From: Pseudobutyrivibrio ruminis
GTDB taxonomy: Bacteria; Bacillota; Clostridia; Lachnospirales; Lachnospiraceae
Assembly: GCA_015057305.1 (NCBI GenBank)
Contig: SVES01000013.1
Span: 1 to 64,000 of the forward strand
DNA length: 64,000 nucleotides
Direction of reading: 5' to 3'
Shown here: positions 4,719-27,446 of the stretch, one piece after another
Layout: each line of letters opens with the position of its first letter
Numbering within the stretch: the first letter of the stretch is position 1
Translations under genes and position numbers: made by a program
Notes under the pieces: generated by a model
Told to the model about the DNA's origin: nothing
The model's database searches: none
Seen by the model: only the letters and a program-made list of their open reading frames with translations

Positions 4719-6137
4719 CTATGTAAATAAATCTTTAAGCGTAATAACCGATTGTATATTTCCAGAGTAGGAATTCTGAACCATACCATATGTGGTTATT
4801 AATGTAGGATATATTGCGTACTTTGTTTTTGTAATATTTACAAAGTCAGCAATTTTTTTCCTAATACTCTCATCCACGCTTTCTGTTACTGTGAAATCAG
4901 AATTAGAAAACTTAATCTCGCATAAATTTATCACTTGATCTCTTCTAACAATCAATAAGTCAATCTGAGAACCATTTATCCCTTTATCTACATCACGCGT
5001 ACAATACCACGAGTTCACATCTGTTTGAACACCAGATATACCGAGCTTACTTTTAATTTCACTAATGTGTTCCAAGCACACTCTCTCAAACGCAAGCCCC
5101 TGCCATGTATTTATCTGTGGCATATTTATCTGGTTAGACCAGAATCTTTCATCAGAAGGTTTGTTCTTAAGGAACTGGTAATAGAAAAGAGTATAATTAT
5201 CAATCAATTGATAAACAGCATTCTTTTTCTTCATCCCAAAAGAATCATATTTTCTAATAAAACCACAGCTCTCAAGTTCTTCAAGTTTTTTGGTCAAATC
5301 TCCTGAATTCGCAATTCCAGAATTTGCAATTATCTCTTCACGAGTCATCCCGACTTTTTTTGTAGCCAATGTCTCGATAATTTTTATATATGTTTCTGGC
5401 TTCTTAAATATTGATGAATACAAGTATTTAAACTCATCTGCTAAAGGTGCGTTTTTCGCAAAAAGTATTTCATCGATATTTTGTGGTAGGCTTAGGCCTT
5501 TCTTTAAAAATCCCCAATAAAAAGGTACGCCACCAAAAATCATATAATACTGAAGTATCTGACTTTCTGTCAGTACTAAATTTTTAGATTGTACATATTC
5601 TTGACACTCCGATAATGTAAAACTTTGAAGATGTATTTGTTCGGTCAATCGGTTATACAAACCACCTTTATTATGAACTATTTTTGATAGCATCCATGAT
5701 GTAGCAGAAGCGCATACTATTAAAACCACATCTCTTCTACCTGAAGCCCATCCATTCCAAAAATTCTCTAGAGCTACCATCAAATCACTATTTTGGGTAT
5801 CCATCCATGATAACTCGTCAATAAATATAATTTTCTTTTTTTCTGTTGAGTTTCGAATTACATCTTTAAGGTCTTCAAACGCTTCTAACCAATTCTTCCT
5901 TTTCTTTTCAGGCTTGCCGCCAGCATCTTTTATAGATGACTCAAAAGCAAATAGTTGGTCTTTCAGTCCCCCTTCTGATAATCCCGCATGCTGAAAAGTA
6001 AATCTATAATTAAAAGCCTCTCTGATAAGGAAAGTCTTACCGATTCTTCTGCGGCCATAAATAGCTACAAAATGAGAATAATCGTCTTGCAGTGTTGAAT
6101 TTAATATTTCAAGTTCTTTTTTTCTTCCTATTATCAT
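4719..6137 (-). CDS. ATP-binding protein, ATPase_2/DUF234-type P-loop ATPase with C-terminal nuclease-like domain
   Basis: MIIGRKKELEILN, YGRRRIGKTFLIREAF (Walker A), IIFIDELSW (Walker B), C-term INGSQIDLLIVRRDQVINLCEIKFS (PD-(D/E)XK-like D...ExK). Start moved to the ATG after GAGG. Confidence 0.82.
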   Translation of the reverse strand: MIIGRKKELEILNSTLQDDYSHFVAIYGRRRIGKTFLIREAFNYRFTFQHAGLSEGGLKDQLFAFESSIKDAGGKPEKKRKNWLEAFEDLKDVIRNSTEKKKIIFIDELSWMDTQNSDLMVALENFWNGWASGRRDVVLIVCASATSWMLSKIVHNKGGLYNRLTEQIHLQSFTLSECQEYVQSKNLVLTESQILQYYMIFGGVPFYWGFLKKGLSLPQNIDEILFAKNAPLADEFKYLYSSIFKKPETYIKIIETLATKKVGMTREEIIANSGIANSGDLTKKLEELESCGFIRKYDSFGMKKKNAVYQLIDNYTLFYYQFLKNKPSDERFWSNQINMPQINTWQGLAFERVCLEHISEIKSKLGISGVQTDVNSWYCTRDVDKGINGSQIDLLIVRRDQVINLCEIKFSNSDFTVTESVDESIRKKIADFVNITKTKYAIYPTLITTYGMVQNSYSGNIQSVITLKDLFT

Positions 6138-6292
6138 ATCAGTCCTCAACTCTTCTTAATCTCGATTATTTTGTATCTTTAAGTAGATTCTAATACGTTT
6201 TTGGGTTAATTTCAATATATTTTTCAATCCAACTCTACTTAATCATGATTAAAATAGGAGATTGAGTAGATTCAAAGCAACTTTATGGTTCG

Positions 6293-7564
6293 TTAAATCA
6301 TCCCATATCCACCGCTCTTCAATATCTCATCCTTTAATGATATAGCATTTTCAAATCCTTTTTCCGCCAATTTTTCAGCCGCATCCGCCATTGCCTTTTC
6401 GAGTTTATTTGCCACATCATCAAAATTATTTAGTACCAAATTACTAGATAATCCTATTTCCGATGCCGCCATTTCAAACTTACTTCTATTAATTTTTGAA
6501 ATATTCAATTCATCGCCAATATAAAACGACATATCAGATGTAGTACGATATACTCTCGTTGCCACTAAATCATAAGCTGGTGCTAGTCGTTTTGATTTTA
6601 AATCCTCGCTATATAATAGAGAGAAATTCTTTACATGACAGTCTGTATTTCCTATCAAATAATTAAAAATAATAATTCTTAACAACGCCATTTGATCTTC
6701 AATTGGATTGCTCGAATTATTTCTTAAAAGTTCAAACATTCTCGCCATATATCCTGATGGAGTTTTCTCATATTTGTCGGCCGCAAATATACCCAGTGCC
6801 TGAGCAAAATCCTCTTGATGTAGTCTGTATGGACATTTCAAACCATCCAATTCTTTGTTGTTAGACAATGGCCTATCATATCTCGCTGTTGCGTATAATA
6901 TATCTTCGTCTGCCTGCGAACCATGCGAAACAATAAAGCTTTCCGGTACCGTAATGCCAATACGCTTTGCTGTTTGAATACATAACTGTTCGTTCAGAAC
7001 TATTTGTTTATGTCTAACATGACTTTGTTTTACTATATGGGTACTTGGTGCATCACCTTTTGGCAGATACCATGTTTTATCAGCAGCATCATAATAAAGG
7101 CCAACTTTTCCAGATGCCCCTGTCAAAGAAAGATGTGTTTCTAATAGTATCTCAGTTGATTTTGTTGCCCCCTCTGCTGCAAGTGCTTTAACCCTTTGGG
7201 CTGATAGCAATTCATAGGCCGACACCTCGTCATCCTGCCCTTCAACTATTTTTATAGCACCAAGACATTCCTTGCCCAACTCAGCTAGGATTGATATATA
7301 ATCGTTTTCATCTGCTTTCATCCAATTAGCTACAGCTTTTCGCGAAAAGCCTTCTGGCAGTAGACTCTCAAAAAAATTCTTTGTCTTTGCAGGCGAAAAA
7401 GCCTCCTGTTGCAATGGCAGCGAAATCGATATTGCTGCTGCATCTTTATTATCTAAGTATTCTCTTTCATAACTGAATCGGGCGTCTAAGTAGCTTTCAC
7501 CAGCGATTTTTCCAACCAGCGTCTGTATTCCGTTTAATTCTATATATACACTTAATTCTCGCAT
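6293..7564 (-). CDS. hipA: Type II toxin-antitoxin system HipA family toxin
   Basis: LTGASGKVGLYYD, YLPKGDAPSTHIVKQ, FNYLIGNTDCHVKNFSLLY and LAPAYDLVATRVY are HipA motifs. Confidence 0.9.
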   Translation of the reverse strand: MRELSVYIELNGIQTLVGKIAGESYLDARFSYEREYLDNKDAAAISISLPLQQEAFSPAKTKNFFESLLPEGFSRKAVANWMKADENDYISILAELGKECLGAIKIVEGQDDEVSAYELLSAQRVKALAAEGATKSTEILLETHLSLTGASGKVGLYYDAADKTWYLPKGDAPSTHIVKQSHVRHKQIVLNEQLCIQTAKRIGITVPESFIVSHGSQADEDILYATARYDRPLSNNKELDGLKCPYRLHQEDFAQALGIFAADKYEKTPSGYMARMFELLRNNSSNPIEDQMALLRIIIFNYLIGNTDCHVKNFSLLYSEDLKSKRLAPAYDLVATRVYRTTSDMSFYIGDELNISKINRSKFEMAASEIGLSSNLVLNNFDDVANKLEKAMADAAEKLAEKGFENAISLKDEILKSGGYGMI

Positions 7565-18785: not shown

Positions 18786-20033
18786 TTATTGCAGCCCAGC
18801 ATCAATTTCCCGCCAATTATCCGTACATGTACAATAATTACAAACAGTTCCTCGTGGAAACAGAGAAAAACTTTTTAATTTTTCTCTATCACACAAAGTA
18901 ATGTCTACAAAATTATTTTCATCTTTACATATCCCTAAATCATATAGTGCTGCAGCTCTTGCACACAAATATAATTTTCCATTTGATAAAGTTTTACACA
19001 CCTTAGGCGACGCGCACTTATAGTTCGTCATTAATTCCTCATAAGGAGTCATTTGCCTTGCCATAGTATCATTAGAATCATGCCATATTAGCTCATCTAG
19101 TATCTCAAATTTAATTTCGTTGTTTTTTAATCTATTAATCAATTCATTTAATCTTGTGGATTTAGGATACTTGCTAACTCTGACTAGAACTTTATTCTTC
19201 TTTAACTGTTCTAAAACCCGTTCTGAAGGCACAATAGTCCCATTTGTCGTCAACTCTATCCTATCAATCTTTGCCATTTTCCTTAATTGTTCCAAGATTG
19301 TAACTAAATCTGGATAAAGAAATGGTTCTCCACCTAATAATTCCATTACCATTATTCTATCAACCTTATCAGAAAGGCTGTTTATATCCTTAATAATCCT
19401 GCTTTTATTAAAATGTTTAGGCGCGGTAAATTTAGGCATCAGATTATTACATCCTTTGCATTTCAATGTACATTTTTGTGTTAATTGAACAACAACTCTT
19501 GGAATCACTATTTTGGAGTCATCTTCAATATCTGCTAATATTTTTGCATAATATTCATGATAAGAAGAGGATTCTTTTTCTATTTCATTTATATGGCAGT
19601 ATCGTTCCACTTCTTCCCCAACTGCATCTAAGAGATAGTGCTGTTTAGTTGTAGTCCTTATTGTTTCTCTTTTATAGCCAAGCCATAATATCTTCCCCTG
19701 CTTCACATTCATGCTTAAGAGCAACTTGTTAATAGATTTAGCCGTTAGCATATCAGCAACTGCAATTAACACATAATCATATTGATATTCTTTAATGGCA
19801 TTTATGGGTACAACTTCTAATCCCCAACTGTTATACATTTCTGCTTTTTGGTCAACCCACGCGACAATGTTACAATACTCCGTATACATTAATTGCATAT
19901 AATAAGCTTGCCCCACATCTCCTGCCCCATATAATACAATATTTGAGCCTTTAGGAATTTGAGAGTATGGTACCACCCAATCTTTTGACATATAAAATTG
20001 CTTTTCATAGTTTTCAAAGTCATTTCTTATCAT
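18786..20033 (-). CDS. Radical SAM protein (SPASM-like C-terminal Cys cluster) with N-terminal YGAG domain
   Basis: N-term SNIVLYGAGDVGQAYYMQL; VQLTQKCTLKCKGCNNLMP (CX3CX2C); ELLGGEPFLYPDL; C-term KCASPKVCKTLSNGKLYLC...CNYC. Confidence 0.87.
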   Translation of the reverse strand: MIRNDFENYEKQFYMSKDWVVPYSQIPKGSNIVLYGAGDVGQAYYMQLMYTEYCNIVAWVDQKAEMYNSWGLEVVPINAIKEYQYDYVLIAVADMLTAKSINKLLLSMNVKQGKILWLGYKRETIRTTTKQHYLLDAVGEEVERYCHINEIEKESSSYHEYYAKILADIEDDSKIVIPRVVVQLTQKCTLKCKGCNNLMPKFTAPKHFNKSRIIKDINSLSDKVDRIMVMELLGGEPFLYPDLVTILEQLRKMAKIDRIELTTNGTIVPSERVLEQLKKNKVLVRVSKYPKSTRLNELINRLKNNEIKFEILDELIWHDSNDTMARQMTPYEELMTNYKCASPKVCKTLSNGKLYLCARAAALYDLGICKDENNFVDITLCDREKLKSFSLFPRGTVCNYCTCTDNWREIDAGLQ

Positions 20034-20053: not shown

Positions 20054-21343
20054 TTAAATCATTCTTGCATTATGCTGCACTAATATATCAAATACCTGCT
20101 TCTTATTGTGGTCATTTAATCCTAAAACAAAAAGTGTAGAGTCATTGATATCTATATCATCTATCCCATTTACACTCTTTCCTAATAACAAACTAGGATT
20201 CATTTGCTTATCTGTAACAACAAATCCCTTAATAAGAATATCGCCATCTTGTAATTGCAATGCTATGTTTTTAGCTTCCACTCCAGCTCCATAAATATAT
20301 ACTTTTTTCCCAAGCGCCTCTTTCCTTATATAATCATAATAATCTTCACATTTTTTTGCCTGCATTACAGCCATTTTATTGAATATAATTCTAGACGACT
20401 TGCCAAAAAGCTTTGTTAGTTCCTCAGCCTTTTTCAAGCATTCATCAACTGTCACAGGCTTATTCTCATAAAAAGCTTGCTCGCAAAGAGCCATTTGCAT
20501 TTTTTCAGTTTGGCATTTATATTTATTTACTGTTTCACTATTAAATAGCTCATAATATTTATAAAATCTTGTTCTATAATCTAATACAAAATCCTTATCA
20601 TTATTGAATCTTTCATTCCAGGACCCAGCATGCATATAATTTCTTACTGCCCAGCATTTATCTAAATAGTATATTCTGCCATTATTATTTAGATGGAATC
20701 TTATAGAATCATCCCCAACTGGACATTCTAAATAAGCTTTGCTATTAATCGCATCTCTTGCATCTTCAACACGATAAAAAAATGATGCTGTAGGTGGTCT
20801 ACCATTTTTACAAAAGAATACTTCGTCATCATCAACAATACCTGTTTCCATATCAAATATTTGTGGTACAATCTCACTAATGCTAACTCTTATAGCATTA
20901 TGAAAACACATTGAAATTTCATCGTTTTCCTCAAGAATATCGTATTGCCGCTGAAGTTTTTTAGGATATATCCAATAATCATCGCCTTCACATAAAGCAA
21001 TATATCTACCATTCACAATTTCATTTTTTAATCTAGTTCTCATCATTCTGCCATTAGCTGTGTTATAGGTGTTTTTTTTTGCAATATAGGCTTTTATAAT
21101 ATCAGGGTATTCAGCAGCATATCTTCTAACAATGTCAGATGTTCCATCAGTTGATGCATCATCAAAAACTATTACTTCATACTTGAATGTTGTTTCCTGA
21201 TTTATAAACCCTAGTAATGCCTTTTCTATAAAATTTACATGATTGTATGTAAGACACCAAATAGTAACATCTATCCCGTCAATATTATTTTCTGTATTGT
21301 GTGTCTCAAATTTAAAAAAATTTTGTAAACTAATATCAAGCAT
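20054..21343 (-). CDS. Glycosyltransferase family 2 with C-terminal YGAG domain
   Basis: IDVTIWCLTYNHVNFIEKALLGFINQ, VIVFDDASTDGT, CEGDDYW; C-term KKVYIYGAGVEAKNIALQLQ. ATG with an upstream AAAGGAG preferred over the track start at 21406. Confidence 0.86.
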   Translation of the reverse strand: MLDISLQNFFKFETHNTENNIDGIDVTIWCLTYNHVNFIEKALLGFINQETTFKYEVIVFDDASTDGTSDIVRRYAAEYPDIIKAYIAKKNTYNTANGRMMRTRLKNEIVNGRYIALCEGDDYWIYPKKLQRQYDILEENDEISMCFHNAIRVSISEIVPQIFDMETGIVDDDEVFFCKNGRPPTASFFYRVEDARDAINSKAYLECPVGDDSIRFHLNNNGRIYYLDKCWAVRNYMHAGSWNERFNNDKDFVLDYRTRFYKYYELFNSETVNKYKCQTEKMQMALCEQAFYENKPVTVDECLKKAEELTKLFGKSSRIIFNKMAVMQAKKCEDYYDYIRKEALGKKVYIYGAGVEAKNIALQLQDGDILIKGFVVTDKQMNPSLLLGKSVNGIDDIDINDSTLFVLGLNDHNKKQVFDILVQHNARMI

Positions 21344-21378
21344 CTGTTTCAGCACTCCTTTAGACCGATTAAAAATAC

Positions 21379-22191
21379 TCAAAGTGTTGATTCCCATTTC
21401 ACCCATTTATGTTCCATAGGACAATAGCCACACAGTTTATTAGCTCGTTCTAACAATTCCAACGCATCCCACCCTGATATATTAATTTGTCCTAATAAAT
21501 CAATTGTATTATCTTGATATGAACCTTTGCATGCGGTTTGCTTTTCTAGCATCTCGCATATAGTTGGAATCGCACCACACATCATAAGCTTACCATTTTT
21601 TAATGTGTGGCAATGAGCACTAGCACAATTTGCAAATATTGATTTATACATTTCATCAAACTCAGGTTCTCGATTAATTCGTTCCATAAAGTATTCAATT
21701 GGTTTACCAATTTGCAACCTCAAATCATACTCATAAATTTTTTCTGTGATTAAATCAATTTGATTTCTAGTCGGAGGATATTGCGATATTTGTATAATAG
21801 CATTGTTGTTTCTTATACTTTTTAGTATTCTGTCATTTACCTTAGGTATTAATAATCCATTTGTAACAATGCACAATTCAGAATTTGGAAAATATGATCT
21901 CGCTGTGCTTATATACCAATCCAAATCATCAACAACAAATGGTTCTCCACCCATCAATCGAATCCGCCTAATGTTAGAAAACAGTCTATTCAATGTCTCA
22001 AATGATTTTTCAAATTCCTCTCTATTTGTTTTGTCGAGTTTTGTCACCAAATCAGACTTATGACCACAATTTCTACATTTTAAATTACAAAAACTAGTTA
22101 CATCATGTTCTATATATGATAGTTCAGGTTTGACATCTTCAAAATATCGTATATACGATTTAAATTCTCCATCATTATCTATAATCGGTAA
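21379..22191 (-). CDS. Radical SAM protein, paralogue of 18786-20033; start codon unclear (only ATT/ATA between the upstream TAA and the CX3CX2C motif)
   Basis: Extending the 223-aa track ORF in frame gives LPIIDNDGEFKSYIRYFEDVKPELSYIEHDVTSFCNLKCRNCGHKSDLVTK, adding the radical SAM motif. Also IRLMGGEPFVVDDL and C-term NCASAHCHTLKNGKLMMCGA...CGYC. Confidence 0.75.
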   Translation of the reverse strand, partial: LPIIDNDGEFKSYIRYFEDVKPELSYIEHDVTSFCNLKCRNCGHKSDLVTKLDKTNREEFEKSFETLNRLFSNIRRIRLMGGEPFVVDDLDWYISTARSYFPNSELCIVTNGLLIPKVNDRILKSIRNNNAIIQISQYPPTRNQIDLITEKIYEYDLRLQIGKPIEYFMERINREPEFDEMYKSIFANCASAHCHTLKNGKLMMCGAIPTICEMLEKQTACKGSYQDNTIDLLGQINISGWDALELLERANKLCGYCPMEHKWVKWESTL

Positions 22192-22494
22192 TTATCCTCC
22201 AAATACATATCTATCTGGAACAAATATATCTTTTTTAAACCAGGGTAACAAAGACATAACCATTTCTTGTGCAACTTGAAAGTTTTCTACGGCTACAACA
22301 ATTGCCTCTACCTGTTTTTGCCAGTCATCCTGAAACAAATTAACATCAACAACAGGAAGTCCAGGTTTATTCCAATCATGTCCATTTACATTATTATCAA
22401 TATACACTATAGGTTCATATTTGTTTGTTTTCTCCAGTTCTTTAAATATATATTTCCCAAAATTTCCTGCACCATATATTGCTATTCTTCTCAT
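22192..22494 (-). CDS. Free-standing YGAG Rossmann-like domain protein (in frame with the following radical SAM ORF, separated by one TAA)
   Basis: MRRIAIYGAGNFGKYIFKELEKTNKYEPIVYIDNNVNG...YVFGG*; stop TAA at 22194-22192. Confidence 0.78.
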   Translation of the reverse strand: MRRIAIYGAGNFGKYIFKELEKTNKYEPIVYIDNNVNGHDWNKPGLPVVDVNLFQDDWQKQVEAIVVAVENFQVAQEMVMSLLPWFKKDIFVPDRYVFGG

Positions 22495-22556
22495 AAAACA
22501 CCTAACAACCTTCTGAGTTTCCTATCAAGATTCATTTTTTTACAAAATACTATTTT

Positions 22557-23609
22557 TCATTCATATTTAATATATTCGATTAGCCCTGATAAGTAGCCTC
22601 TTTCTTCAAAACTTTTTTTATTCTCACTAATCTTACGTTTGATTTCTTCTCTATCGCTTGGTTCTTGAACTGAGACCCATATAATATCCTGTCTATTTTC
22701 ATCTATAGTCAGCATGTAATTTGTCGATTTCCTTGGGAAATAATAAACACCATCTTTTTTCTCATAGGAATAATATTTACTTCCGATTTTTAACCATGCA
22801 TCAGACTGTGTATAATGATAGTCTTCTGGGTAATCTCCATATTTGTATACAGTACCATCATATTTAATACAAATAATATTATCTTCTGTTCTTGGCAGCA
22901 CATATAATTTATCCTTTAATGGAATCATCATTCCTCTGATTAGGTCGCAAGAATTATCTTTTTTTAAGTCTATATAATCTATCTTCTCGTTCCCATCCCA
23001 AATTATTATATTTTTCTCACATAATATATATATTTTTTGATTATAAACTGTCGCATCCTGCATATTATCTAATGAAAACGGCATTTTTTCCATACTCATA
23101 ACATTTTCTTTAAAGTCATATTTATAATAGCTACTTCCAAATGAGGTAAAGAAAAACATCTCATCATCTAATTTACATCCACGCATATTCTTCTTGTCAA
23201 CATTAGGAAGAAAGGAAATCCTCTTATAATCACCACTTTCGCAAAGAATAATTACTTCATCAGCATTCCTTCTAAAAAGATATAAATGATTGTTCCATTT
23301 TTCTAGACTAATAAAACTTGCAGTTGCTTTTTCATCTTCATAAATATCAGTGATTACATTTAATTCTATATCATAGTAAGCAACAATCATTGGTGACCAA
23401 CTAATAATAAAGAGCGTCTTATTTAATAAAACTAAGTATCCAACACCCCTTTTTTGAATCTGTTCAATATTTTTAATTTTTGAACTATACATAGTTTGCC
23501 GCGTGCTCAAATCAGTTTTCCAAAATGCACCATTTGCGTAAAATATCAAACTATTATCAATAATTACATGATCATTACATATCCATTTTTCACCATCGAG
23601 CATTTCCAT
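22557..23609 (-). CDS. Hypothetical protein, repeat-rich (possible beta-propeller)
   Basis: Recurrent short beta-like units (NNHLYLFRRNADEVIILCESGDYKRISFLP, KIYILCEKNIIIWDGNEKIDYIDL, KLYVLPRTEDNIICIKYDGTVYKYGDYP). Confidence 0.6.
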   Translation of the reverse strand: MEMLDGEKWICNDHVIIDNSLIFYANGAFWKTDLSTRQTMYSSKIKNIEQIQKRGVGYLVLLNKTLFIISWSPMIVAYYDIELNVITDIYEDEKATASFISLEKWNNHLYLFRRNADEVIILCESGDYKRISFLPNVDKKNMRGCKLDDEMFFFTSFGSSYYKYDFKENVMSMEKMPFSLDNMQDATVYNQKIYILCEKNIIIWDGNEKIDYIDLKKDNSCDLIRGMMIPLKDKLYVLPRTEDNIICIKYDGTVYKYGDYPEDYHYTQSDAWLKIGSKYYSYEKKDGVYYFPRKSTNYMLTIDENRQDIIWVSVQEPSDREEIKRKISENKKSFEERGYLSGLIEYIKYE

Positions 23610-23614
23610 TTCAC

Positions 23615-23833
23615 CTACTTCCATCTGTCATAGCACCAATCTATGTACTCAGAAATGTATACTTCCAAATCCATATTTTCGTGAAATTTTAAATTTGACT
23701 GTCTACGAATTTCTATATCTGATTTCCACCAACTTAACCCAAAAATTCTTGCAATCTGAGGATAAACCGGCATTTCGTCCCACCCCAAATGCAATGAGCA
23801 ATTTGCATCTTTTTCATTTATCCCTTTTTCCAC
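23615..23833 (-). CDS. Small hypothetical protein (72 aa)
   Basis: ORF in tight operon spacing between the CitE-like and propeller-like genes. Confidence 0.4.
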   Translation of the reverse strand: MEKGINEKDANCSLHLGWDEMPVYPQIARIFGLSWWKSDIEIRRQSNLKFHENMDLEVYISEYIDWCYDRWK

Positions 23834-23866: not shown

Positions 23867-24724
23867 TTATTCTGTAAACTGTCTAATTGCATTTTTGCAC
23901 TTTTTTAACATAGGCGGTCCAATCATTTTTCCGCCAACTAGTATGATATTTTTATTATTTTTTATGGCATCTTCTTCAGCGTCTATTACTCGTTCAGCCA
24001 TTTCTATCTGTTCTTCATCTGGCATATATGCCTTATTGCAAGCATCTATTTGTATAGGATGCAATAATAGCCTACCGGCAAATCCATTCTTATATGATTC
24101 CTGCGACTTTTTTAAAAATGCATCCTGATTCTTATAATCTATAAATGGTGTATCTATAGGTTTAATTTTTTCCTTTCTTGCTGCATTTACAATTGCTGAT
24201 CTAGGCATAATAAATGCTTCTTCATTATATGTAACTATTGACCCTATATCATTTAGATAGTCTTCTCCACCAAAGCATATAGCCACAAGTCTTTTACTTG
24301 CACGTGCAATTTCATTTACTCTTGCCACAGCACTAGCTGTTTCGATTAATGGTGCTAGAGAAATTTTATTATCTGGTAGTCCATTTTTTCTTTCAAAAAA
24401 TAGTAATAGTCTATCTAAATATTCAATATCTTTTTCGTCATTTATTTTACTAGGCATAATCCCATCGATACCTGGAAGAATCACTTTAGAAATATCTTCA
24501 ATAAAATTAATGGAGTTTATTTCATTTATCCTTATGAAAACTGTTTTTCCTTCTAATAAATCTTTTTTGCTATAATCAATGATTTGAAGTCTTGCTTCTT
24601 CCTTCAGTTCCTGCGATACCGAATCTTCCAAATCTAAAATTAATGCATCTACATCTGAATCTAATCCTTTATCGATATACCTTGTTTTATTAGCCGGTAT
24701 AAATAGCATACTTCTCAGTTTCAT
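23867..24724 (-). CDS. HpcH/HpaI aldolase / citrate lyase beta-subunit-like CoA ester lyase
   Basis: LRSMLFIPANKTRYIDKGLDSDVDALILDLEDSV, LAPLIETASAV, AICFGGEDYLNDIG, GRLLLHPIQIDACN are CitE-family motifs. Confidence 0.9.
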   Translation of the reverse strand: MKLRSMLFIPANKTRYIDKGLDSDVDALILDLEDSVSQELKEEARLQIIDYSKKDLLEGKTVFIRINEINSINFIEDISKVILPGIDGIMPSKINDEKDIEYLDRLLLFFERKNGLPDNKISLAPLIETASAVARVNEIARASKRLVAICFGGEDYLNDIGSIVTYNEEAFIMPRSAIVNAARKEKIKPIDTPFIDYKNQDAFLKKSQESYKNGFAGRLLLHPIQIDACNKAYMPDEEQIEMAERVIDAEEDAIKNNKNIILVGGKMIGPPMLKKCKNAIRQFTE

Positions 24725-24738
24725 ATCTCACCTTCATT

Positions 24739-26292
24739 TTATAATGATATATTCCCGTGTTTTTTTTCATTAATATTTGAAATTGTTTTATTATTGAATC
24801 CATCAAATACACCTATTAATGTTTGACGCGTATCTTCCGGTAATATAATCTTATCAATCATTCCGCATGATGCTGCAAAGTATGGAGTCAAATACTTTTC
24901 TCTATATTTTTCTACCTCCATATTTCTCCTCTTTTCAGGATTATCGTCATTTTCAATTTGTCTTTTTAATATAACATCGACAGCTCCATCTGCCCCCATC
25001 ACTGCTAATTCAGCAATTGGCCATGCAAGTACATAATCAGCGCCTATGCCCTTACTATTCATTGCACAATATGCCCCACCATATCCTTTTCGCATAATTA
25101 GAGATACTCTTGGGACTGTTGCTTCCGAAAATGCATATAGCATTTTACAGCCATGTCTCAATATGCCTTTTCTTTCCTGTTTTTTTCCAGGATAAAATCC
25201 AGGAACGTCCACTAATACTAATAAAGGAATATTATAACAATCACATAGTCTAACGAATCTTGCACATTTATCAGCTGCATCACAGTCAAGCGCTCCACCA
25301 ATTACTTTGGGTTGATTCGCAACTATGCCAATAGTTCTTTTGTTTAGTTTTCCAAATCCAATAACAATATTAGGTGCAAATTCTTCTTGAAATTCAAAAA
25401 AGCTATCACTATCCAATACCCTTCTTATTACTTCCTTAACATCATAACTATGTCTTGTATTTTCAGGTACAATCTCTTCTATCTCTTTTGCTCTTATTGC
25501 TTCATTTGTTTTGTTACGCTTGTCGTTTTGATTAATATTTACGTTGTAAATATAACCTATAGTTTCCTTCACCTTCTCAATACATTCAGAGTCATTTTCG
25601 CACACTAAATGTGCTTGGCCACTATATCTCGAATGTATTTCACTTCCCCCCAGCTCATCCATTGTCACTTTCTCTCCAGTCAAAGCCTCTATTACCTTCG
25701 GGCCTGTAATAAAAAACTGACTAGTCACCTTTGTCATAAATACAAAGTCACACATCGCAGGTGAATAACTTGAACCGCCTGCGCAATTGCCCATTATTGC
25801 TGCAATTTGCGGTATAAGTCCCGATGCTTTTGTGTTTAGATAAAATAATCTACTATAGGCATCTAGGGAAAGTATCCCCTCTTCTATTCTTGCTCCACCA
25901 CTATCGCACAAAAATATCATTGGGCACTTGTTGTCTATTGCCATTTCAAGGGTTCTGCATATCTTTCTTAAATGTGTCTCTCCCCCTGACCCGCCTCTTA
26001 CAGTACTATCTTGAGAAACAGCAAAGCATTTCACTCCATTTATGCTTCCATAACCAGCAATAACGCCGTCTCCTATTATTCGCTTACTATTTAATTCTTC
26101 TAAATCGATATGAGTCACAACATATTTTTCAATCTCCGTATACTTTCCGTCATCAAAAAGCATCCCCATTCTTTCACGTGCAGATAATTTACCTAATGAA
26201 TGGATTTTATTTATTCTTTCGACTCTACTTTCCTCAGAAGAACTCGCTTCATTTTCAAAATATCTTTGTCTTACTTCGCTGTTCCAGCTCAT
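24739..26292 (-). CDS. Acyl-CoA carboxylase, carboxyltransferase (beta) subunit
   Basis: KLSARERMGMLFDDG, GGSGGETHLRKICR, PMIFLCDSGGARIEEGI, LLVLVDVPGFYPGKKQERKGILRHGCKMLYAF, MRKGYGGAYCAMNSKG. Confidence 0.92.
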   Translation of the reverse strand: MSWNSEVRQRYFENEASSSEESRVERINKIHSLGKLSARERMGMLFDDGKYTEIEKYVVTHIDLEELNSKRIIGDGVIAGYGSINGVKCFAVSQDSTVRGGSGGETHLRKICRTLEMAIDNKCPMIFLCDSGGARIEEGILSLDAYSRLFYLNTKASGLIPQIAAIMGNCAGGSSYSPAMCDFVFMTKVTSQFFITGPKVIEALTGEKVTMDELGGSEIHSRYSGQAHLVCENDSECIEKVKETIGYIYNVNINQNDKRNKTNEAIRAKEIEEIVPENTRHSYDVKEVIRRVLDSDSFFEFQEEFAPNIVIGFGKLNKRTIGIVANQPKVIGGALDCDAADKCARFVRLCDCYNIPLLVLVDVPGFYPGKKQERKGILRHGCKMLYAFSEATVPRVSLIMRKGYGGAYCAMNSKGIGADYVLAWPIAELAVMGADGAVDVILKRQIENDDNPEKRRNMEVEKYREKYLTPYFAASCGMIDKIILPEDTRQTLIGVFDGFNNKTISNINEKKHGNISL

Positions 26293-26301
26293 ACATATCC
26301 C

Positions 26302-26757
26302 TCAATCATTCTTTTTCTTAATCAGAACATGCCGTCTAAATGACATGACTTTATCTCCATTTTGGTTATAGGCTTCAGTTTCAACATATATTATTCCTCT
26401 ATCCTCTTTAGACTTAGATTCTCTGCAATCTAATACCGTCGACTTAGCATAAATTGTATCTCCTATAAACACTGGTGCTAAATGTTTAACATATTCATAA
26501 TCTAAATTAGCAATAGCTTTTCCACTAATATCAGGCACAGTTATTCCTACAACTAAACTGAATACTAATGTTCCAACTACAAGTATCTTCCCATGTTGTT
26601 GTTTTGAAGCATAGTCAACATTTGTATGAACGGGGTGATGATTCATAGTTATCAATGAAAACAAGTTATTATCACTTTCAAAAATTGTTTTTGATAACGA
26701 ATGAACTATTTCCTCTCCAGGTGTAAACTCTTCGAAATATCTTCCCAAATCACTCAT
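26302..26757 (-). CDS. MaoC-family (R)-hydratase/dehydratase (hotdog fold)
   Basis: RYFEEFTPGEEIVHSLSKTIFESDNNLFSLITMNHHPVHTNVDYASKQQHGKILVVGTLVFSLVVG. Confidence 0.9.
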   Translation of the reverse strand: MSDLGRYFEEFTPGEEIVHSLSKTIFESDNNLFSLITMNHHPVHTNVDYASKQQHGKILVVGTLVFSLVVGITVPDISGKAIANLDYEYVKHLAPVFIGDTIYAKSTVLDCRESKSKEDRGIIYVETEAYNQNGDKVMSFRRHVLIKKKND

Positions 26758-26777: not shown

Positions 26778-27446
26778 CTATAATGGTTTTATTTTCCTTT
26801 CTGTTTCCTTTGCTGGATTTCCATATACCATCTTTCCTGTCTCTATACTTTTTATAACATTTGATGCCATACCACAAAAAATATCATCACCAAGTTCAAT
26901 ATAATTATTTAACGACGAATTCAGTCCTATAAAACACCTGTCCCCCAGCTTATTATTACTTCCTATAGCACAATGTCCTGTTATAAAATTACTATTTCCT
27001 AATTTAGTATCATGCCCAATCAATACATTTGAATGTATAGTATTATAATTTCCCAAAGTAGCATTTGAATTTATAACTGAATTCGCCAATATCACATTGC
27101 CATATCCCATCGTTACTGATTGAGCCACATACGCGCTATGGTGAATAAAATTTGCATATCGATTAAGTGGTATTTCATAACTGTCTCGTAATCTACATCT
27201 TTCTTCTATTAAATCAGGTCTATATAATGCAAATACAAACTTTACATCATCATCATCTTTAAATAACTTATAAGCATCATAAGTTTTACATAATATTGGA
27301 ATACCATTTATTTCCTCTCCAAACAATTCATCATCAAATGCAAATCCCAATAATTTACAACTTCCAGTCTTTCTTTGTGTATCTAATATTTGTTCTGCAA
27401 TTACAACTGCAGAGCCTTTTCCCCCAATTACTATTATCTTATCCAT
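26778..27446 (-). CDS. NeuD/PglD-family sugar acyltransferase (left-handed beta-helix)
   Basis: IIVIGGKGSAVVIAEQI N-term; hexapeptide repeats VTMGYGNVILANSVINSNATLGNYNTIHSNVLIGHDTKLGN. Confidence 0.87.
   Translation of the reverse strand: MDKIIVIGGKGSAVVIAEQILDTQRKTGSCKLLGFAFDDELFGEEINGIPILCKTYDAYKLFKDDDDVKFVFALYRPDLIEERCRLRDSYEIPLNRYANFIHHSAYVAQSVTMGYGNVILANSVINSNATLGNYNTIHSNVLIGHDTKLGNSNFITGHCAIGSNNKLGDRCFIGLNSSLNNYIELGDDIFCGMASNVIKSIETGKMVYGNPAKETERKIKPL

Follow-up and report, generated by a model that had tools for sequence, protein, structure and literature searches.

The locus considered here lies on the minus strand of a 64,000-nucleotide stretch of the Pseudobutyrivibrio ruminis contig SVES01000013.1 (hereafter, the window) and consists of a reading frame, 22494-21379, that encodes 100 amino acids, a stop codon and a further 270 amino acids before being closed by a TGA at 21381-21379. 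The upstream part (22494-22195, starting with the ATG at 22494) is a YGAG or PglD_N-like domain of the Rossmann type; the downstream part (22191-21379, 270 codons plus the TGA) reads as a radical SAM protein. Between them, the TAA at 22194-22192 is the sole stop inside an otherwise open frame of 1,113 nucleotides (22494-21382), and the minus-strand junction runs ...YVF GGA GGA TAA TTA CCG ATT ATA GAT AAT GAT GGA..., in exact agreement, coordinates included, with an earlier sequence-only reading of this DNA that had described an ORF ending in GGA GGA TAA followed by a stop-free frame down to 21379. That reading had also pointed to the want of a canonical start for the radical SAM part, and a codon listing bears this out: no ATG, GTG or TTG is present between the TAA and Cys136 (read-through numbering), where the CX3CX2C motif begins (FCNLKCRNC, with CNLKCRNC as residues 136-143), and the earliest canonical start after the stop, a TTG at 22050, lies past the motif and would forfeit it, as had been noted. 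Codons one change away from ATG do occur in this interval, namely the ATT at 22185 and the ATAs at 22182, 22152 and 22113. The ATT (22185-22183), which had been proposed as a rare start, stands 10 nt behind a Shine-Dalgarno-like GGAGG (22200-22196) located within the Gly-Gly codons, a spacing that was likewise read correctly.

The 100-residue ORF matches the Pfam family PglD_N (PF17836) with 36.2 bits against a cutoff of 23.4, which places it among the PglD_N-like (YGAG) domains, and the 270-codon frame matches Radical_SAM (PF04055) with 33.9 bits against a cutoff of 29.5, which, together with CX3CX2C, places it in the radical SAM superfamily. Because both halves exceed their Pfam cutoffs and a profile of the relatives aligns through the stop (E = 6.6e-139, the window sequence itself being one of the eight rows of that profile), the split frame goes beyond chance. 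To describe the YGAG domain as free-standing is misleading, since it derives from the ancestral gene that also gave the radical SAM half. In NCBIfam, the radical SAM half matches many radical SAM families, with MoaA as the best, and all of them fall below threshold, so that its specific enzymatic role cannot be named. Its C-terminal part contains Cys290, Cys295, Cys306, Cys355 and Cys358, which are invariant among the aligned relatives and form a pattern that we take to suggest an auxiliary Fe-S cluster. At the level of sequence profiles, the radical SAM part matches the 4Fe-4S cluster-binding domain protein of structure 7wzv (E 1.2e-18) and MoaA (1tv8; E 4.4e-11), both of them distant likenesses that do not imply functional equivalence, whereas the YGAG domain matches neither of these but 3nkl, an entry for a UDP-D-quinovosamine 4-dehydrogenase. 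In a structure model of the read-through protein (mean pLDDT 71), the position of the stop falls in a predicted linker, with strand 89-93 before it and strand 115-117 after it.

Among the neighbours of the split gene are family 1 and family 2 glycosyltransferases, and the surroundings are therefore those of a surface-glycan type cluster. Directly downstream lies a family 2 glycosyltransferase (20054-21406, minus), whose longest ORF overlaps the 3' end of the radical SAM frame, and upstream lies a 355-residue protein with no Pfam match (22557-23624, minus). This arrangement is partly alike in the nearest relative found (L034, CAJSZV010000001.1): the downstream glycosyltransferase finds its best match there in a family 2 enzyme at 5230-6549 (33%), with an extra gene in between in L034, and the upstream neighbour shows weak similarity (19%, E = 0.001) to the gene directly upstream in L034. 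Farther upstream on the minus strand, genes labelled by eye as citrate lyase beta/HpcH-like, carboxyltransferase-like and MaoC-like dehydratase (23867-26757) form an unusual company inside a glycan cluster; they adjoin a NeuD-like acetyltransferase (26778-27446, also labelled by eye), and a 72-residue ORF with a GTG start and no Pfam match (23615-23833, minus) separates the HpcH-like gene from the upstream neighbour. The window also harbors an intact paralogue (18786-20033, minus), already recognised in the sequence-only reading as having both domains in one ORF; it is indeed a single ORF of 415 residues and belongs to a different branch of the family.

Homologous loci were compared for fused and split forms, as that reading had advised, across overlapping draws of 29 genomes at the level of the genus, about 400 at that of the family and about 390 each at those of the order and the class, together with a scan of genome contigs, in which a single-protein search returned no relative and an alignment-based search did. 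The yield was about 107 homologues, most of them single ORFs of roughly 365-390 residues that begin with a YGAG domain; in about 28, the N-terminal part is shorter, and most of those are domain-only. Among the roughly 107, none lacks a canonical start ahead of CX3CX2C and none consists of two abutting in-frame ORFs, and the rows of three of these genome searches contain no internal stop besides that of the window gene. A natural two-gene arrangement was considered and rejected, since the domain-only relatives have no abutting in-frame YGAG ORF; four loci (L065, L069, L082 and L110) show weak N-domain matches in another ORF. L034 itself is one ORF of 382 residues, 37% identical over residues 1-370, that shares its start position with the window gene and aligns to it without gaps near and across the junction. 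In the maximum-likelihood tree, the window copy groups with L034 and with another fused relative, L035, in a clade supported at 97/95, and is thus nested among fused members. These proteins, which with L038 represent a fused YGAG/PglD_N-like and radical SAM type found in Lachnospiraceae and other gut Bacillota, have the same domain order, CX3CX2C motif and set of C-terminal cysteines as the window gene, and homology runs along its full length. The difference lies in the linker, where the TAA prevents the window gene from carrying both domains in one ORF as fused members do, and where the relatives have a sense codon: AAG (Lys) in L034, GAG (Glu) in L035 and CAA (Gln) in L038. A disabling lesion at a position where intact homologues carry a sense codon is one mark of a nonsense pseudogene, the other being the absence of a functional product or a relaxed constraint. 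The nearest relatives are thus fused and the split is seen in the window copy alone.

The state of the downstream half is less telling. Of the 27 columns with at least 85% conservation it retains 25, nothing unusual among these proteins (rank 16 of 104); in the class of 60-85% conservation, which comprises 39 columns, it deviates at 44%, the fifth worst of 104. It also lacks a C-terminal tail of about 15 residues with a conserved DW, which is found in many relatives, L034 among them, and whose loss hints at a possible second real change. On these alignments, the conservation pattern is compatible with a recent lesion and does not tell function from decay.

The split gene is not the only broken one in this genome. 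On a second contig (C64 of G000, locus L155), the minus-strand stretch 1039-131 encodes a YGAG domain, a single in-frame TAA (667) in the linker and then a TylF-like methyltransferase frame, which has no start codon for 34 codons; the relatives of this gene are fused, and a sense codon takes the position of the TAA. The same contig also carries a radical SAM paralogue (3657-2412, minus) that loses its frame at a short (TA)n tract, whereas the homologue L006, from a congeneric species, is one intact frame; this frameshift could be either decay or slippage-based phase variation. A heuristic scan for split genes based on ORF dominance, covering 1.82 of 3.42 Mb, returned about five nonsense splits that look credible, including two in transposases (labels by eye); coding-potential scoring had been tried for this purpose and set aside as too weak, the window gene itself scoring near background. 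Minus-strand in-frame stops at L136:18420, L214:3862 and L234:7136 split the two transposases and one signal-peptide protein (by eye). These further splits suggest a background of pseudogenes. The occurrence of two YGAG-TAA-enzyme cases in one genome is a curiosity; their stops have no common context and neither is present in any of the relatives found.

Of the four explanations that the sequence-only reading had offered without ranking them, the one that prevails is the nonsense mutation of a fused gene, since the nearest relatives are fused and carry a sense codon, and we consider it probable that a single nonsense substitution in the linker has divided an ordinary fused YGAG-radical SAM gene. 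The ancestral gene would have encoded one protein, with a YGAG/PglD_N-like nucleotide-binding-fold domain in front and, behind it, a radical SAM domain bearing additional cysteines in its C-terminal part; a single-nucleotide substitution would then have turned a linker codon (Lys, Glu or Gln in the nearest relatives) into TAA, and no insertion, deletion or change of frame would be required. Translation from the ATG at 22494 to the TAA would yield the YGAG domain alone, and the radical SAM half would be expected to be absent or present in traces. The case is made by the sense codon in L034, L035 and L038, by the nesting of the window copy in a fused clade, by a split that is shared with no other homologue, by a stop that sits in a predicted linker and by the further nonsense and frameshift lesions of the genome, two of which affect related genes. 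Against it count the retention of the invariant radical SAM residues, as would also be expected of a functional gene, and the GGAGG that happens to adjoin the stop; and with 37% identity even the nearest relative is a distant one, so that the split may instead be older and maintained in the lineage. The gene is most likely inactive in this strain, with loss of its function, and the retention of every catalytic residue makes the lesion look recent. The sequence-only reading had named, as the outcome that would overturn it, relatives that all start normally and a copy that is a lone decaying pseudogene, and this is essentially what the comparison found.

A sequencing or assembly error of one base, with a fused and intact gene in the organism, also figured among the four explanations and keeps some standing as an unlikely one. 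The assembly is a draft of 113 contigs, 89% complete, and its scanned half has few tRNA genes, a picture consistent with a short-read metagenome bin; the TAA is one base away from a sense codon, and the catalytic residues are all kept. Single-base consensus errors are, however, rare in well-covered short-read assemblies, the other split genes include transposases, which are commonly real pseudogenes, and the missing C-terminal tail, if it is a second real change, also argues for a genuine lesion. We infer that the base is real. The two remaining explanations, an ATT start and readthrough, gained no positive support. In the former, the radical SAM half would be made separately, by termination and re-initiation at the ATT (22185) by way of the Gly-Gly GGAGG, at a low output sensitive to IF3. 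The existence of domain-only radical SAM relatives means that the domain can probably work alone, and Escherichia coli infC provides a precedent, the only one found in a literature search, of a gene that starts with ATT (PMC5472188). The common point with infC-type genes, which start with ATT or ATC, is an ATT codon behind GGAGG; the rare start of infC is documented and autoregulatory (PMC5472188), whereas the ATT of the window is a candidate read from the sequence. Non-canonical starts are moreover repressed by IF3 (PMC5472188), which speaks against use of this one. The GGAGG is the simple product of two GGA glycine codons and is present in no relative; the position of the ATT is not conserved, the nearest relatives being fused with no start there; and the domain-only relatives use ATG, GTG or TTG, several of them 14-19 codons before the cysteine motif, a solution that has not arisen here. 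Taken together, these points make re-initiation at the ATT very unlikely.

Programmed readthrough, which would produce a mixture of the free YGAG domain and the full fused protein, with the YGAG-TylF gene as a second case, draws on the two in-frame TAAs in the linkers of YGAG-enzyme genes in one genome and appears scarcely credible. A UAA followed by U is a strong and efficient termination context, and UAAU is the context of the window gene. Readthrough of a programmed kind is marked by a conserved stop with a stimulatory context or structure; here, the stop at either place occurs in no relative found, the two stops have no context in common (GGA TAA TTA and TTT TAA AGA), and the predicted RNA fold around the window stop, in which the GGAGG is partly paired, is no more stable than that of shuffled sequence (z = -0.64). 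A scan of half the genome revealed no ochre-suppressor tRNA, and the paralogue neighbouring the YGAG-TylF gene is broken by a frameshift instead. The broader idea that this lineage splits the fused YGAG-enzyme genes of its surface-glycan clusters at the linker, reversibly or in a programmed way, so as to yield a free YGAG domain and a second enzyme by readthrough or ATT re-initiation, with the window gene and the YGAG-TylF gene of C64 as its instances, is highly improbable.

The nonsense mutation of a fused gene settles an annotation puzzle: the startless radical SAM frame is the rear part of a fused gene that a stop has interrupted, and neither half should therefore be annotated as a complete enzyme. 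If the radical SAM half were made after all, a glycan gene would provide a rare case of ATT initiation or of readthrough. As it stands, the split looks like an ordinary broken gene and not like a new mode of translation start, and the several broken YGAG-enzyme genes in one genome fit an ordinary turnover of surface-glycan genes.
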